A DNA stretch of 35,490 bases from NCBI GenBank assembly GCA_020073325.1, contig JAIQFJ010000009.1, positions 1-35,490 on the forward strand, given 5' to 3'. The position numbers and the translations under genes were made by a program. Below are positions 4,067 through 35,299 of the stretch, piece after piece. The notes beneath the pieces are model-generated. The model saw nothing but the letters and a program-made list of their open reading frames with translations, was not told the DNA's origin and ran no database searches. The first letter of the stretch is position 1. Each line of letters starts with the position of its first letter. The stretch comes from Terriglobia bacterium. Its GTDB lineage: Bacteria > Acidobacteriota > Terriglobia > Bryobacterales > Bryobacteraceae.

Positions 4067-4115
4067 ATGTGGGCCGGTAGGATACCGGCGAGCCGGCTGT
4101 CAGCCGGCCCCACAT
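4067..4115 (+). repeat. Double-hairpin REP-like element, copy A, with complete outer inverted repeat
   Basis: ATGTGGGCCGGTAGGATACCGGCGAGCCGGCTGTCAGCCGGCCCCACAT. Confidence 0.85.
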
Positions 4116-7791: not shown

Positions 7792-8244
7792 ATGTTAAAG
7801 CTCACGAAAAAAGCGGACTACGGGCTGATCGCGCTCCGGCATCTGGCGGAGATGCCCGGGGGATCGAGCGCGAAGGATATTGCCGTGAATTACGGCATTC
7901 CGCTGCCGCTGCTTTCGAAAATTTTGCAGAAATTGGCGCGTGAAGGATTGCTCGCCTCGGAGCAGGGGACGCGCGGAGGCTATCGGCTGGCTCGCGACCC
8001 GCATGAGATTTCGGCGCTCGAAGTGATTCGCGCGATCGACGGGCCGATCATCCTGACGCACTGCTTCACCGAACACACCGAGTGCGACCAGAGCGGCCGC
8101 TGCCCGGTGCGCGAGCCGCTGCGCAAGGTTCACGAAGGCATTTTGCAACTGCTCGAAAACATCAGCATTTCGGACCTCACGCAGGACGGCATGCCCGTGC
8201 CGGCCATCCCGCTCACCACCATTCAATTCGGAATGAAAACATGA
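7792..8244 (+). CDS. Rrf2 family transcriptional regulator (IscR-like)
   Basis: [70 protein letters not shown]; cysteines [22 protein letters not shown]. Confidence 0.92.
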
Positions 8245-9455
8245 AGACTCCGGTCTACATGGATTACCAGGCCACGACGCCCGTCGATTCGCGCGTGTTC
8301 GAGGCGATGCGGCCGTATTTCTGCGAACTGTTCGGGAACGCGGCGAGCAAGACGCACAGCTTCGGGTGGCGGGCCGAAGATGCGGTCGAGAAAGCCCGGC
8401 GGCAAGTGGCCGAGCTGATCGGCGCGTCGGCAAAAGAGATCGTTTTTACCGGCAGCGCGACGGAGTCGAATAATCTCGCGCTCAAGGGCGTCGGCGAGGC
8501 GTATCGCGATCGCGGGAATCACGTGGTGACGGTCGCGACGGAGCACAGAGCGGTGCTCGACGTGTGCAAGCACCTGGCGGCGGACGTCACGTATCTGCCG
8601 GTCGCGCAGGACGGATTGATCGATCTCGATCAGTTACGCGATGCGATCACGGATCGCACGGTGCTGGTCAGCGTGATGTATGCGAACAACGAAATCGGCG
8701 TGATTCAGAATCTGCGCGAGATCGGAAAGATCGCGAAAGAGCGCGGCGTGCTGGTGCATTCCGACGCGACGCAGGCGGTGGGAAAGATTCCGGTGGACGT
8801 GGCGGCGGACAATATCGATCTGCTGTCGCTGAGTGCGCATAAGATCTACGGTCCGAAAGGCTGCGGCGCGCTGTATGTTCGCGCGCGCGACCCGCGCGTG
8901 AAGATCGCGGAGCAGATGAACGGCGGCGGTCACGAGCGCGGGATGCGCAGCGGGACGCTGAATGTTCCTGGAATCGTCGGGCTGGGCGAGGCGTGCACCA
9001 TTGCTCGGGTCGAGATGGCGGAGGAAGCGAAGCGCACGGCGCGCCTTCGCGACAAACTGCGCGACCGGCTGGCGGCGGATCTCGACGAGGTGTACGTCAA
9101 CGGCTCGATCGAGCAGCGGCTGCCGAACAATCTGAACATGAGTTTTGCGTTTGTCGACAGCGAATCGCTGATGATGGGGATTCACGACATCGCGGTGTCG
9201 AGCGGATCGGCATGCAGTTCGGCGGCGATTGAGCCGAGTCATGTGCTGCGCGCGCTGGGGATCGGCGACGATCGCGCGCATTCGGCGATCCGGTTCGGAC
9301 TGGGGCGGTTCACGACGGACGAAGAGGTCGATTACGTGGGGGCGCGCGTGACGGAAGTCGTGCGCAAGCTGCGCGAACTTTCGCCGTTGTACGAAATGCG
9401 GCAGACGGTCCCTGACCCCGGCGTCACGGGCCACGTGTCCCAAAGCAGATCATGA
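8241..9455 (+). CDS. iscS: Cysteine desulfurase (IscS/NifS family)
   Basis: [75 protein letters not shown]; start overlaps the Rrf2 stop (ATGA). Confidence 0.93.
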
Positions 9456-9465
9456 GGCGCAGGAG

Positions 9466-9704
9466 CGGCGTTCGCTCGCGGTTCATACAAATCGCTCAAC
9501 CCATGTAGTGGCGATCGCGACCAGAGGAAGCGGCGAGCATTGAGTTTTCACAAAGACTCGTAACGGTTTGGGTGAAAACTCGGTAGCGCGATCATTTGAC
9601 CAATCCACAGCAGCAGCCGGCATGGCTGCCGGCTTGCCGCTCGACGAGCGGCCCCACGAATTCTGCTCCACGTAGAATAGAGGTGCATGCGCCTCAGCTT
9701 CCTT
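9466..9704. repeat. Direct repeat copy 1 (239 bp), containing a 44-bp double-hairpin insertion
   Basis: Near-identical to 9725-9919 except for an extra 44-bp segment around 9614-9657. Confidence 0.9.
9614..9657 (-). repeat. Double-hairpin REP-like element, copy E
   Basis: Reverse complement GTGGGGCCGCTCGTCGAGCGGCAAGCCGGCAGCCATGCCGGCTG; matches 19398-19441. Confidence 0.85.
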
Positions 9705-9724
9705 AACGAGTGTGTGAAAAGTAT

Positions 9725-9919
9725 CGGCGTTCGCTGGCGGTTCATACAAATCGCTCAACCCATGTAGTGGCGATCGCGACCAGAGGAAGCGGCGAGCATT
9801 GAGTTTTCACAAAGACTCGTAACGGTCTGGGTGAAAACTCGGTAGCGCGATCATTTGACCACTCCACAGCTCGAATTCTGCTCCACGTAGAATAGAGGTG
9901 CATGCGCCTCTGCTTCCTT
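9725..9919. repeat. Direct repeat copy 2 (195 bp), containing the promoter and start of the M28 peptidase gene
   Basis: Aligns with 9466-9704 apart from the 44-bp segment and a few substitutions. Confidence 0.9.
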
Positions 9920-11260
9920 CTGATCGCTTCTCTTGCGCTCGGCGCGGACGATGTTCATATCTCCGCCGATTCGCTGCGCGGGAACTTATCGTTTCTCTCG
10001 TCGGACCTGCTGGAGGGGCGCGCGACGCCATCGCGCGGGCTCGACATCGCCGCTGAGTACATCGCGGGGCAGCTCCGGCGCGCTGGACTCGAGCCGATCG
10101 GCGACGACGGATATTTTCAGACCGCGACCATGCTGGTCCGCGAGCAGAATCCGCAGGGATTTCAGATGACCGTGACCGCCGGCGGCAAGACCGTGCGCGT
10201 CGAAGCGGAGCAAGCGGCAATTCTGGTCGACAAAACGCTAAATCTGGAAAATGTTCCGATCGCGATTATGCCGGAGGATGCCGCCGGCAAGGTGGTGGTG
10301 ATCAACGCGCCGGGGCGCGTCGCGCCGAAGGGGGCTGCTCTGGTGTTGTTTGCTCCGCCCGACAGACCGCGGCCTTCGGTGACCGATCCTGAGTCGGCGC
10401 GGCCGGCGCGCAGCTCCGTGGTGTCTCCGGAAATGATGGATCTGCTGAAGAACGCCAAGGACGCGCGCGTGACGCTGCATGTCGAGCCGATGATCGAGCG
10501 TCGCGTGAAGGTCCGCAACGTGGCCGGCGTGCTGCGCGGGTCCGACCCCGTGCTGCGCGATACGTACGTCCTGCTGACCGCGCATTACGATCACGTCGGC
10601 ATGCGGGCGTCGGGCGACGACAAAATTTTCAACGGCGCGAACGACGACGGCAGCGGCACGGTTTCGGTGATCGAGATTGCGCAGGCGCTTGCGGCGATGA
10701 ATCCACGGCCGAAGCGGTCGATTGTCTTCATGACGTTCTTCGGCGAGGAACTGGGAGACGTGGGGTCGCACTATTATGCGCGTCATCCGCTGGTGCCGCT
10801 GGCAAAAACGGTCGCGCATTTGAATCTGGAACAACTGGGCCGCACCGACGACAGCGAAGGCGCGCAGGTCGCCGAGGCGACGGTGACCGGGTACACTTTC
10901 TCGACGCTGACGAAGACGCTGGTGGAGGCGGGTAAGGCGGTTGGGGTGAAGATTCACGATCGTCCGCACACCGACGAATATTTTTCGCGCAGCGACAATC
11001 TGGCGCTGGCCGAAACCGGCGTGCCCGCGCACACGTTGGGCGTGTCGTTCGATTTTCCGGATTATCACGGCGTCGGCGACGAGTGGCAGAAAATCGATTA
11101 CGACAACATGGCGAAGATCGACCGGGCGGTGGCGCTGGGGCTGCTGCGGCTCGCCTCGGATGCGGAGCCTCCGAAGTGGGACGAGTCGGTGGCGGCGGCG
11201 AAGAAGTATGCGGACGCGGCGAAGAAGCTGCACGAACCGGCAGCGGCGGCGCGTCGCTGA
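9902..11260 (+). CDS. M28 family zinc peptidase with signal peptide
   Basis: LLTAHYDHVGMRASGDDKIFNGANDDGSGTVSVIEIAQAL; MTFFGEELGDVGSHYYARHP; HTDEYFSRSDNLALAETGVPAHTL. Confidence 0.92.
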   Translation: MRLCFLLIASLALGADDVHISADSLRGNLSFLSSDLLEGRATPSRGLDIAAEYIAGQLRRAGLEPIGDDGYFQTATMLVREQNPQGFQMTVTAGGKTVRVEAEQAAILVDKTLNLENVPIAIMPEDAAGKVVVINAPGRVAPKGAALVLFAPPDRPRPSVTDPESARPARSSVVSPEMMDLLKNAKDARVTLHVEPMIERRVKVRNVAGVLRGSDPVLRDTYVLLTAHYDHVGMRASGDDKIFNGANDDGSGTVSVIEIAQALAAMNPRPKRSIVFMTFFGEELGDVGSHYYARHPLVPLAKTVAHLNLEQLGRTDDSEGAQVAEATVTGYTFSTLTKTLVEAGKAVGVKIHDRPHTDEYFSRSDNLALAETGVPAHTLGVSFDFPDYHGVGDEWQKIDYDNMAKIDRAVALGLLRLASDAEPPKWDESVAAAKKYADAAKKLHEPAAAARR

Positions 11261-19042: not shown

Positions 19043-19306
19043 GCTCCGAGCGCACCCGCGGCCAATCGGCCGCACATTGAGATCGCCAGCAGCCACTGAA
19101 ACGAGATCCCCAACGGGATCAGCGAGGCGAGATCGACTGCACAGGCGGCGACGCCGATGCAAAATCCGTCGATCCATTTCTTCCCGAACCGCCACGCGGC
19201 GAGGAAGCTGAACAGCGCGCCGCCGACCGGGCCGGTCCACGCGCCGAGCCGCTCTGCGAACCGCTGATCGGCTCCGCTTTCATGCGGGCTGAATAAAGCG
19301 ACCAGC
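19018..19306 (-). pseudogene. 3' half of a split small membrane protein gene
   Basis: LVALFSPHESGADQRFAERLGAWTGPVGGALFSFLAAWRFGKKWIDGFCIGVAACAVDLASLIPLGISFQWLLAISMCGRLAAGALGAYLNRRII*; no start codon at the upstream end, which abuts the repeat at 19307; not in the supplied ORF track. Confidence 0.75.
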
Positions 19307-19552
19307 TACCCCGCTCATGGTCCTGTAGTCTGCTTTGCAAACTGAACCGAACGCGAGTGAGCGGCCCGTTCGCTTTCGAATTCGCCGGAACATCAGCGTG
19401 GGGCCGCTCGTCGAGCGGCGAGCCGGCAGCCATGCCGGCTGATGCCGATTCCTTCGTGCTCCGCGCCATCCGAGTCCTCACACCGGCGCAGGAGGCTCAA
19501 TGAGCTCCGCATCGTGATTGAAAGCCCACTCCGGCGATTCCGAAAGCGGCGC
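19307..19552. repeat. ~246-bp composite palindromic repeat, tandem copy 1
   Basis: TACCCCGCTCATGGTCCTGTAGTCTGCTTTGCAAACTGAACC... repeated at 19553 with few differences. Confidence 0.92.
19398..19441 (+). repeat. Double-hairpin REP-like element, copy C
   Basis: GTGGGGCCGCTCGTCGAGCGGCGAGCCGGCAGCCATGCCGGCTG. Confidence 0.85.
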
Positions 19553-19767
19553 TACCCCGCTCATGGTCCTGTAGTCTGCTCTGCAAACTGAACCGCGAAC
19601 GCGAGTGAGCGGCCCGTTCGCTTTCGAATTCGCCGGAACATCAGCGTGGGCCGCTCGTCGAGCGGCGAGCCGGCAGCCATGCCGGCTGATGCCGATTCCT
19701 TCGTGCTCCGCGCCATCCGAGTCCTCACACCGGCGCAGGAGACTCAATGAGCTCCGCATCGTGATTG
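19553..19767. repeat. ~246-bp composite repeat, tandem copy 2 (3' truncated)
   Basis: Same sequence as 19307-19521, diverging after GCATCGTGATTG. Confidence 0.9.
19646..19688 (+). repeat. Double-hairpin REP-like element, copy D
   Basis: GTGGGCCGCTCGTCGAGCGGCGAGCCGGCAGCCATGCCGGCTG. Confidence 0.85.
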
Positions 19768-33435: not shown

Positions 33436-34725
33436 GTGATGCCCCGAGTAGTGATTATCGGAGGCGGTTTCGGAGGGCTGGAAGCCGCCAAAGCGTTACG
33501 CAAGGCGCCCGTCGAAGTCACGCTTCTCGACCGGCGCAATTTCCATCTGTTTCAGCCGCTGCTCTATCAAGTCGCCACAGGGTCGCTTTCGCCCGGCGAA
33601 ATCAGCGCTCCTCTGCGCGCAACGTTGCGGAGCCAGAAGAACGTCCGGGTTTTGCTCGGTGACGCCGTTTCGCTCGACGCCGAAAGGCGCGTCCTGATTC
33701 TGGCCGACGGCGCGATCGAATATGACGTGCTCATCGTCGCGACGGGCGCTCAGAATTTCTATTTCGGAAACAAAGATTGGGAGCACGCCGCCCCAGGGCT
33801 CAAGTCGATTGAAGACGCCACCGCGATGCGTCACAAGATTCTGTTCGCGTTTGAAGCCGCCGAGCGCGAGACGGATCCCGCGCGCCGCGATGCGTGGCTG
33901 ACTTTCGTCATCGTCGGCGGCGGACCGACGGGAGTGGAACTCGCCGGCGCGCTCGCCGAAATCGCCACCGATACGCTGCGCCACGATTTCCGCTCGATCG
34001 ATCCGCAGAACGCGCGGATCATTCTATTGGAAGGATCGCCGCACGTGCTGCCGTCCTATCCCGAAGATCTTTCCATCGCCGCCGAAAAATCGCTGATCAA
34101 GCTGGGCGTCCGTCCGCGCGCGGGAATCCGCGTCACCAGGATCGACGCCGACGGCGTCACGATGGATAACGGCGAGCGCATCGCGGCGAAAACCGTACTC
34201 TGGGCCGCCGGCGTGCGTTCGTCGGATTTCGGACAGGCGCTGAAGGACCACGCGGGCGCGGCGCTCGATCGCCAGGGACGCGTGATCGTTGAGCCCGATC
34301 TCACGCTTCCCGGCCATCCCGAAATTTTTGTCGCCGGCGACCTGGCGCATTTCGAGCAGGACGGTCATCCGGTTCCGGGCGTTGCTCCCGTTGCCATGCA
34401 GCAGGGCCGCTACGCCGCCCGCGTGATTCGCGACCGGCTGCGCGGCACACAGACCGTGCCGTTCCGCTACTTCGATAAAGGCAGCCTGGCGGTGATCGGC
34501 CGCCGTTCCGCCGTCGTCGAAATTGGAAAACTGCACGTGACCGGCGCGATCGCGTGGCTGATGTGGCTGTTCATCCACCTGATGTACCTGGTGGGCTTTC
34601 AAAACCGGGTGATCGTTTTTCTCCGCTGGGGAATTCAGTATCTGACCTTCGACCGCGGCGCGCGGCTGATCACCGGCAAGATCCCGGCCCCCGAAAAAGT
34701 CGAAGTTCCAATGTGGGGCCGGTAG
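33436..34725 (+). CDS. ndh: Type II NADH dehydrogenase
   Basis: VVIIGGGFGGLEAAKALRKAPVEVTLLDRRNFHLFQPLLYQVATGSLSPGEIS; FVIVGGGPTGVELAGALAEIA; IFVAGDLAHF; start GTG 33436 or ATG 33439. Confidence 0.95.
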   Translation: MMPRVVIIGGGFGGLEAAKALRKAPVEVTLLDRRNFHLFQPLLYQVATGSLSPGEISAPLRATLRSQKNVRVLLGDAVSLDAERRVLILADGAIEYDVLIVATGAQNFYFGNKDWEHAAPGLKSIEDATAMRHKILFAFEAAERETDPARRDAWLTFVIVGGGPTGVELAGALAEIATDTLRHDFRSIDPQNARIILLEGSPHVLPSYPEDLSIAAEKSLIKLGVRPRAGIRVTRIDADGVTMDNGERIAAKTVLWAAGVRSSDFGQALKDHAGAALDRQGRVIVEPDLTLPGHPEIFVAGDLAHFEQDGHPVPGVAPVAMQQGRYAARVIRDRLRGTQTVPFRYFDKGSLAVIGRRSAVVEIGKLHVTGAIAWLMWLFIHLMYLVGFQNRVIVFLRWGIQYLTFDRGARLITGKIPAPEKVEVPMWGR

Positions 34726-34757
34726 TCCTACCGGCAAGCCGGTTGTAGAACCGGCTG
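34711..34757 (+). repeat. Double-hairpin REP-like element, copy B, overlapping the end of ndh
   Basis: ATGTGGGGCCGGTAGTCCTACCGGCAAGCCGGTTGTAGAACCGGCTGG. Confidence 0.8.
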
Positions 34758-34801
34758 GAGCTTTTCCGGTCACGCGACCTCAGCCGGTTTGACAACACGG
34801 C

Positions 34802-35299
34802 TTAATCCTCAAACGCCGGCTCGAACGCTTCCTCACCCCGAGGACGCACTTCGCGATTCCGCGTGAGAATCCGCGCGCAGGTATTCCAGCGCAGCAGCGC
34901 ATCGTCATTGCCCGCGGGACGCAACGATTCGGCGCGCTCGTAGTAATCCATCGCTTCGCGCAGCGATTGATACGCCGAAAATCCCGCCCCCGGCGAGCCT
35001 TGCCGCAACAGCGCATCCGCCCATCGCTCCGCGATGATGCCGGAATAATAAGCGCGCTCGTATTCACCGTCAAGGCGCTGAATCAGTTCACGCGCGCTTC
35101 CGGCGGAGACTCCTTTGCCGAACTGATCGGTGCGGCTCAGCAGCAGCATCACGACCGCCTGCTGATTCTGCGGCTCAATGCGCAGGACGTCTTCGCAAAT
35201 GCTTTCGGCTTGCCAGGGTTCATTCAGGAGGCGATACCGCTCGACCTTGGCGAGTGCTTCGGGGATCGCCTGACGCGAAATCGGTTTCAGCTCAAACAT
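34802..35299 (-). CDS. Hypothetical TPR-like helical protein
   Basis: MFELKPISRQAIPEALAKVERYRLLNEPWQAESICEDVLRIEPQNQQAVVMLLLSRTDQF... Confidence 0.75.
   Translation of the reverse strand: MFELKPISRQAIPEALAKVERYRLLNEPWQAESICEDVLRIEPQNQQAVVMLLLSRTDQFGKGVSAGSARELIQRLDGEYERAYYSGIIAERWADALLRQGSPGAGFSAYQSLREAMDYYERAESLRPAGNDDALLRWNTCARILTRNREVRPRGEEAFEPAFED

Follow-up and report, generated by a model that had tools for sequence, protein, structure and literature searches.

A tandemly duplicated REPIN remnant in an uncultured Bryobacterales genome and the probable loss of its last arm from one copy

In Pseudomonas fluorescens SBW25 REPs form inverted doublets around a conserved spacer, with singletons beside the doublets and a RAYT that is flanked by its own REPINs (PMC3116915), and 16 tandem clusters made of a REPIN and its flanking sequence have been reported there (Bertels and Rainey 2011, PMC3116915). 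In the part of the GTAG-superfamily account considered here (PMC3733652), REPs occur as head-head dimers, grouped units are reiterated with flanking DNA, singletons are remnants of dimers, and some dimers lie inside longer palindromic repeats. For the transposases, the combination of NHVH, WQ and YIxNNP is the pattern of TnpA_REP subclass 2.4 (PMC6006769), and Solibacter usitatus carries class 3 HUH-Y1 proteins alongside about 600 CnGA-foot structures or hairpins (PMC6006769).

The window, by which we mean the whole 35,490-nt stretch of DNA that was analysed, lies on contig C170 of a 6.54-Mb, 600-contig MAG (G000). Its elements resemble the REPINs of SBW25 in having doublets with a spacer, a RAYT with flanking elements, tandem clusters and singletons (PMC3116915), however in each arm here a single GTGG foot is followed by two hairpins in a row, the host belongs to the Acidobacteriota, and the pair of copies on which we concentrate is a degraded cluster with one arm. 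Dimers, units repeated with their flanks, singletons and a longer-palindrome setting are shared with the GTAG-superfamily as well, although the foot here is GTGG and the family is not met in the part of that account considered (PMC3733652). The RAYT is like those of subclass 2.4, or RAYT group 4, REPtrons by motif only (NHVH, WQ and YIxNNP in ~200 aa), and as in those REPtrons the gene lies between long GT[AG]G REPs, with a double-foot form present here at 4069-4113 (PMC6006769). Solibacter usitatus is of the same bacterial order and class-3-like genes are found here too, but the foot of the window element is GTGG, and its companion gene is the RAYT of subclass 2.4-like type rather than those of class 3.

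Earlier accounts already describe both tandem clusters of a REPIN with its flanks and singletons left over from dimers, and what is seen here is REP/REPIN decay of a known kind, not a new insertion, in a taxon that is new for such elements. We consider it highly probable that a REPIN remnant was tandemly duplicated and that its last arm was later lost from copy 2, the arm being part of a RAYT-associated REPIN family. As the pair would then record REPIN decay after a tandem duplication, it gives no evidence of recent insertion. The locus adds a REPIN-RAYT system with two-hairpin arms in uncultured soil Acidobacteriota (Bryobacterales), with RAYT-specific stems that extend to several sister species, and it illustrates how remnants of spacer and flank tell loss from gain when "filled/empty" pairs are read.

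Double-hairpin arms and their family

The right REP arm of copy 1 (9615-9657, plus strand) is made up of hairpin A, TTG, hairpin B and CCCCAC, and it matches the covariance model of the arm at 67.8 bits, a score that it attains by construction since an identical sequence was in the training set. Folded as single-stranded DNA it gives two hairpins, with z-scores of -3.3 on the plus strand and -3.6 on the minus strand. The reverse strand reads GTGGGGCCG... and starts with GTGGGGC, so that the GT[AG]G tetranucleotide of REPs stands at its 5' foot; in the copies collected from the genome this foot was preset, as the regular expression that collected them demanded CCCCAC.

Hairpin A has five matches in the window at up to three mismatches, against 0.11 expected, and 29 exact copies in the genome, where the covariance model of the whole arm (A-GCCGG..CCGGC-T, Y, GCCG..CGGC, CCCAC) has at least 104 matches. 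The stems covary: 99.1% of cells are paired and 47 cells are altered on both sides, where shuffles give 20.0 (none of 500 reaches 47) and slid pairings 0-13, the regular expression for this test having fixed the outer bases and left the varying pairs free. The element is thus a short palindrome with many dispersed copies and compensatory changes in its stems, which bears out the earlier note's view of it as a dispersed double hairpin of REP type. Among 60 relatives few have many matches to the arm model, G004 having 32. Several contigs of the assembly (C113, C365, C105, C328, C434, C485 and C173) end in or near REP elements, so that the assembly gives a lower bound on copy number.

The 44-bp double hairpin makes up a single arm of a larger unit, the REPIN, in which two inverted REP arms, each made of a GTGG foot, hairpin B and hairpin A, surround a conserved spacer. 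An inverted left arm lies upstream of some 54 of 120 distinct right arms under a loose regular expression (examples of the doublet are on C490, C39, C474, C297, C247 and C291), so that the family contains two inverted REPs with a spacer, whereas copy 1 in the window is one-armed. In the subfamily of the window the order is left flank GCGCGATCATTTGACC, left arm (AAAAAT)GTGGGG, spacer GTTTCGTAACCAATCCACATCA, right arm and CCCCACATTCTTGGTCAAGTTGAG. The stretches outside both feet, TTGACCAAAAATGTGGGG and CCCCACATTCTTGGTCAA, are mutually inverted and the REPIN therefore sits within a longer imperfect palindrome, a setting that the part of PMC3733652 considered here describes for REP dimers of Anabaena variabilis.

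The RAYT and its flanking elements

A search for a RAYT/Y1 gene elsewhere in the genome, as the earlier note had proposed, leads to contig C148, where an intact ORF encodes a 200-aa HUH transposase with the motifs NHVH, WQ (as FWQ) and YIENNP. It scores 34.3 bits against Pfam Y1_Tnp, above the cut-off of 23, and 71.7 bits (E 5.7e-20) against NF047646 REP_Tyr_transpos, where the cut-off is 80; its place in subclass 2.4 (NH[IFV]H, WQ, YIxNNP) is given by motif only. Inverted double hairpins that carry GTGG feet lie on either side of it, an HUH-Y1 gene between REPs of its own family. The stems of these flanking elements are of a sister type (GGTC/GGTT), not of the window type (GGCA/CGCTC), which weighs against our overall reading.

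There are four Y1_Tnp (PF01797) loci in the genome. A second subclass 2.4-like RAYT (L034, on C431) is broken by a frameshift and stops, and two further proteins (L032 on C579, L033 on C363) are HUH-Y1 proteins of class-3-like type with YVLEGQ and YVVAEQ motifs. Flanks of RAYT homologues in other species of the genus were examined with a detector that takes GT[AG]G followed by two consecutive perfect hairpins and that gives 0-0.4 per locus in shuffles. It was positive on both sides of two loci in G004 and two in G012, on one side of the homologue in G018 and, with one mismatch allowed, on both sides in G020; it was positive at 1 of 30 Y1 loci from a PF01797 search of the relatives. Stem sequences differ from RAYT to RAYT, each homologue having its own.

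The duplicated pair at 9461-9919

The pair consists of two direct-repeat segments, 9461-9611 with 9720-9870 (151 nt, 97% identity, offset 259) and 9657-9704 with 9872-9919 (48 nt, 98%, offset 215), and the two offsets, which are those given by the earlier note for its tandem copies, mean a net length difference of 44 bp. That exactly 44 bp are extra holds as a net figure, but the bracket is really 46 nt in copy 1 (9611-9656, plus strand) facing CT in copy 2 (9870-9871). The same difference can be expressed as a 44-nt gap with one A/T mismatch, and on either count the ends of the extra segment in copy 1 are not perfectly clean. Copy 1 (9461-9704, plus strand), the filled one, holds an upstream flank, the REPIN left flank, a spacer remnant, the right REP arm and a downstream flank, and copy 2 (9720-9919, plus strand), which is without the arm, overlaps at its end the first codons of a gene for an M28-family peptidase (9902-11260, plus strand). 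Upstream lies a gene for an IscS-type cysteine desulfurase (8082-9455, plus strand, in the listed frame, its true start being probably near codon 53). Another dispersed intergenic repeat, CGCGGTTCA...GCGACC..AGGAAGCGG, adjoins the REPIN composite at 9477-9560 and is also found on C335, C563, C226, C306 and C454, where it is about 75-88% identical.

The left flank GCGCGATCATTTGACC is present in both copies (9586-9601 and 9845-9860, plus strand), and in the genome there are six exact copies of it and two with one mismatch, the two window copies being counted. It is followed in copy 1 by a spacer remnant at 9602-9612 (plus strand) that reads AATCCACAGCA where the family spacer reads TTCGTAACCAATCCACATC, and then by the right arm, as in the family order. 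Within the pair the remnants are AATCCACAG in copy 1 and ACTCCACAG in copy 2 (9861-9869, plus strand); copy 2 matches copy 1 up to ACTCCACAG with one difference and then goes to CTCGAATTC, a junction that is not clean. At up to two mismatches there are eight left flanks in intergenic DNA outside the window (C39, C94, C490, C501, C20, C25, C426 and C474), and in all eight the right arm follows in the same orientation, none of them being empty. Similarly, 15 of the 16 matches to the spacer have a right arm after them, and the sixteenth is a chance match in coding sequence. The remnant in copy 2 is short, with 7-8 of 9 diagnostic bases matching and a chance of ~1e-3 at a fixed offset that is higher if sliding is allowed, and the argument for loss therefore rests on flank, spacer and arm position combined.

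Because left flank and spacer remnant persist in both copies, copy 2 is best read as a product of loss and not as a virgin empty target, and because the other left flanks are all followed by a right arm, the ancestor of the pair would already have been a REPIN without its left arm. The left arm is missing from both window copies, which would place its loss before the duplication; the right arm is missing from copy 2 only, and its loss would be private to that copy. This departs from the claim of the earlier note that the pair demonstrates gain or loss of the double hairpin as a unit, with no direction given: only one arm is involved, and copy 2, with flank and spacer remnant still in place, is not an empty allele free of all parts of the element.

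The reverse course, in which the duplicated site began without any element and the RAYT put one REP arm into copy 1, appears very unlikely to us. It would account for the near-clean look of copy 2 as an empty allele and for the closeness of the ends of the 44 bp to the hairpin feet, and a RAYT does exist in the genome; however the "empty" site already has the left flank and spacer remnant of a REPIN, an incoming arm would need to have hit the exact position and orientation of the family, and Bertels and Rainey saw excision of doublets but of no singlets (PMC3116915). No target-site duplication is apparent at the pair, and the other genomic copies examined include no precise empty site. An orthologous site in a close strain was not found, the nearest peptidase homologues being 56-68% identical, and the upstream gene was not found beside the peptidase homologues of relatives within the stretches examined. 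The nearest cysteine desulfurase homologues of named relatives, in Solibacteraceae and Bryobacteraceae MAGs, are 67-70% identical.

Reconstructed from these features, the order of events would begin with a REPIN that lay within a larger intergenic repeat, upstream of the gene for the M28 peptidase. Its left arm would have been lost first, probably through a deletion between ACCAA direct repeats, and the region with its flanks would then have been tandemly duplicated, reaching the first codons of the peptidase gene. Copy 2 would later have lost its right arm by a palindrome-associated deletion, either hairpin-bridged replication slippage or hairpin cleavage, the spacer remnant being what such a deletion would leave. 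The flanking CCAC repeats do not explain the junction by simple slippage, which predicts CCACGAATTC where CCACAGCTCGAATTC is observed.

The arm could also have been lost through excision catalysed by the RAYT at the REP feet instead of through replication slippage, an option that we regard as rather unlikely. The copy-2 deletion ends near the hairpin feet, TnpA_REP cuts single-stranded DNA beside REPs at CT (or CA), cleavage at a GTGG foot having fallen on CA or CC in one system (PMC8266576), and reads of REPIN excision are known in SBW25 (PMC3116915). The junction is one base off any simple slippage product, a point against our preferred reading, and with its ends near the feet it does not separate slippage from enzymatic excision. 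We favour slippage, since only one arm was left and excision of singlets is unseen in SBW25 (PMC3116915). Many differing, ragged arm deletions elsewhere also count against excision, being expected of generic palindrome instability.

Such deletions are found on C501, C94, C426, C20 and C25, where the left arm or the spacer is deleted at differing points, so that arms are not in general lost "as a unit". Within the window, a double-foot relic at 4069-4113 (GTGGGCC...GGCCCCAC) scores with the model on both strands, has a fold z of -5.4 and resembles a REPIN that has lost its centre; a double-foot REP could come from a central deletion in an inverted dimer (PMC6006769). A REPIN of the sister stem type (34713-34803, minus strand) has an intact arm at 34713-34756 and a truncated partner, the right arm, at ~34782-34803. 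Taken with the ragged deletions, these two elements, which the earlier note does not mention, suggest that decay by palindrome deletion is common in this genome. A bolder proposal, which we hold to be improbable, is that the RAYT of this Bryobacterales genus acts on a composite REP of two hairpins and one GTGG foot and can excise a single arm; if that were true, copy 2 would be the footprint of single-arm excision, a step unseen in SBW25.

Tandem REPIN clusters elsewhere in the genome

A second tandem duplication in the window (19295-19767, minus strand) pairs 19295-19520 with 19543-19767 at 96.5% identity and has a REP arm in both copies. These arms, at 19398-19440 and 19646-19687 on the minus strand, are the same element in reverse orientation, as had been recognised earlier, with TCG for TTG and with the second one C shorter. 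The element is repeated directly together with its flanks at 9461-9919, at 19295-19767 and on C25, C167, C61 and C511, as well as on C103 and C95 of G004, and in all of these pairs except the one at 9.5 kb the copies hold the element or a degenerate form of it.

The tandem layout or the missing arm could in principle be an artefact of assembling a repeat from short reads, and this MAG has 600 contigs, several of which end inside REP elements. However the two copies are told apart by several single positions and by distinct outer flanks, copy 2 leads straight into an intact gene, and further independent tandem pairs, 197-400 bp long, are present in this genome as well as in G004; we find this explanation hardly credible.

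Tandem duplications were found at eight places in 717 kb of the genome and the element is present in three of these, two of them within the window. Outside the window this leaves 1 of 6 against ~0.3 expected, and enrichment of tandem duplications at elements is thus not established. A count of 6 of 6 was dropped as a sign of enrichment, the loci having been element-centred and biased. On C103 of G004 (L254, 52400-53400) there are three tandem copies of the 3' end of a gene with a REPIN, the third being truncated by a different REP. Two tandem arrays without REP elements, L378:14348-14865 and L387:16481-16836, have periods of 87 and 72 nt, both multiples of three, and are probably coding repeats.
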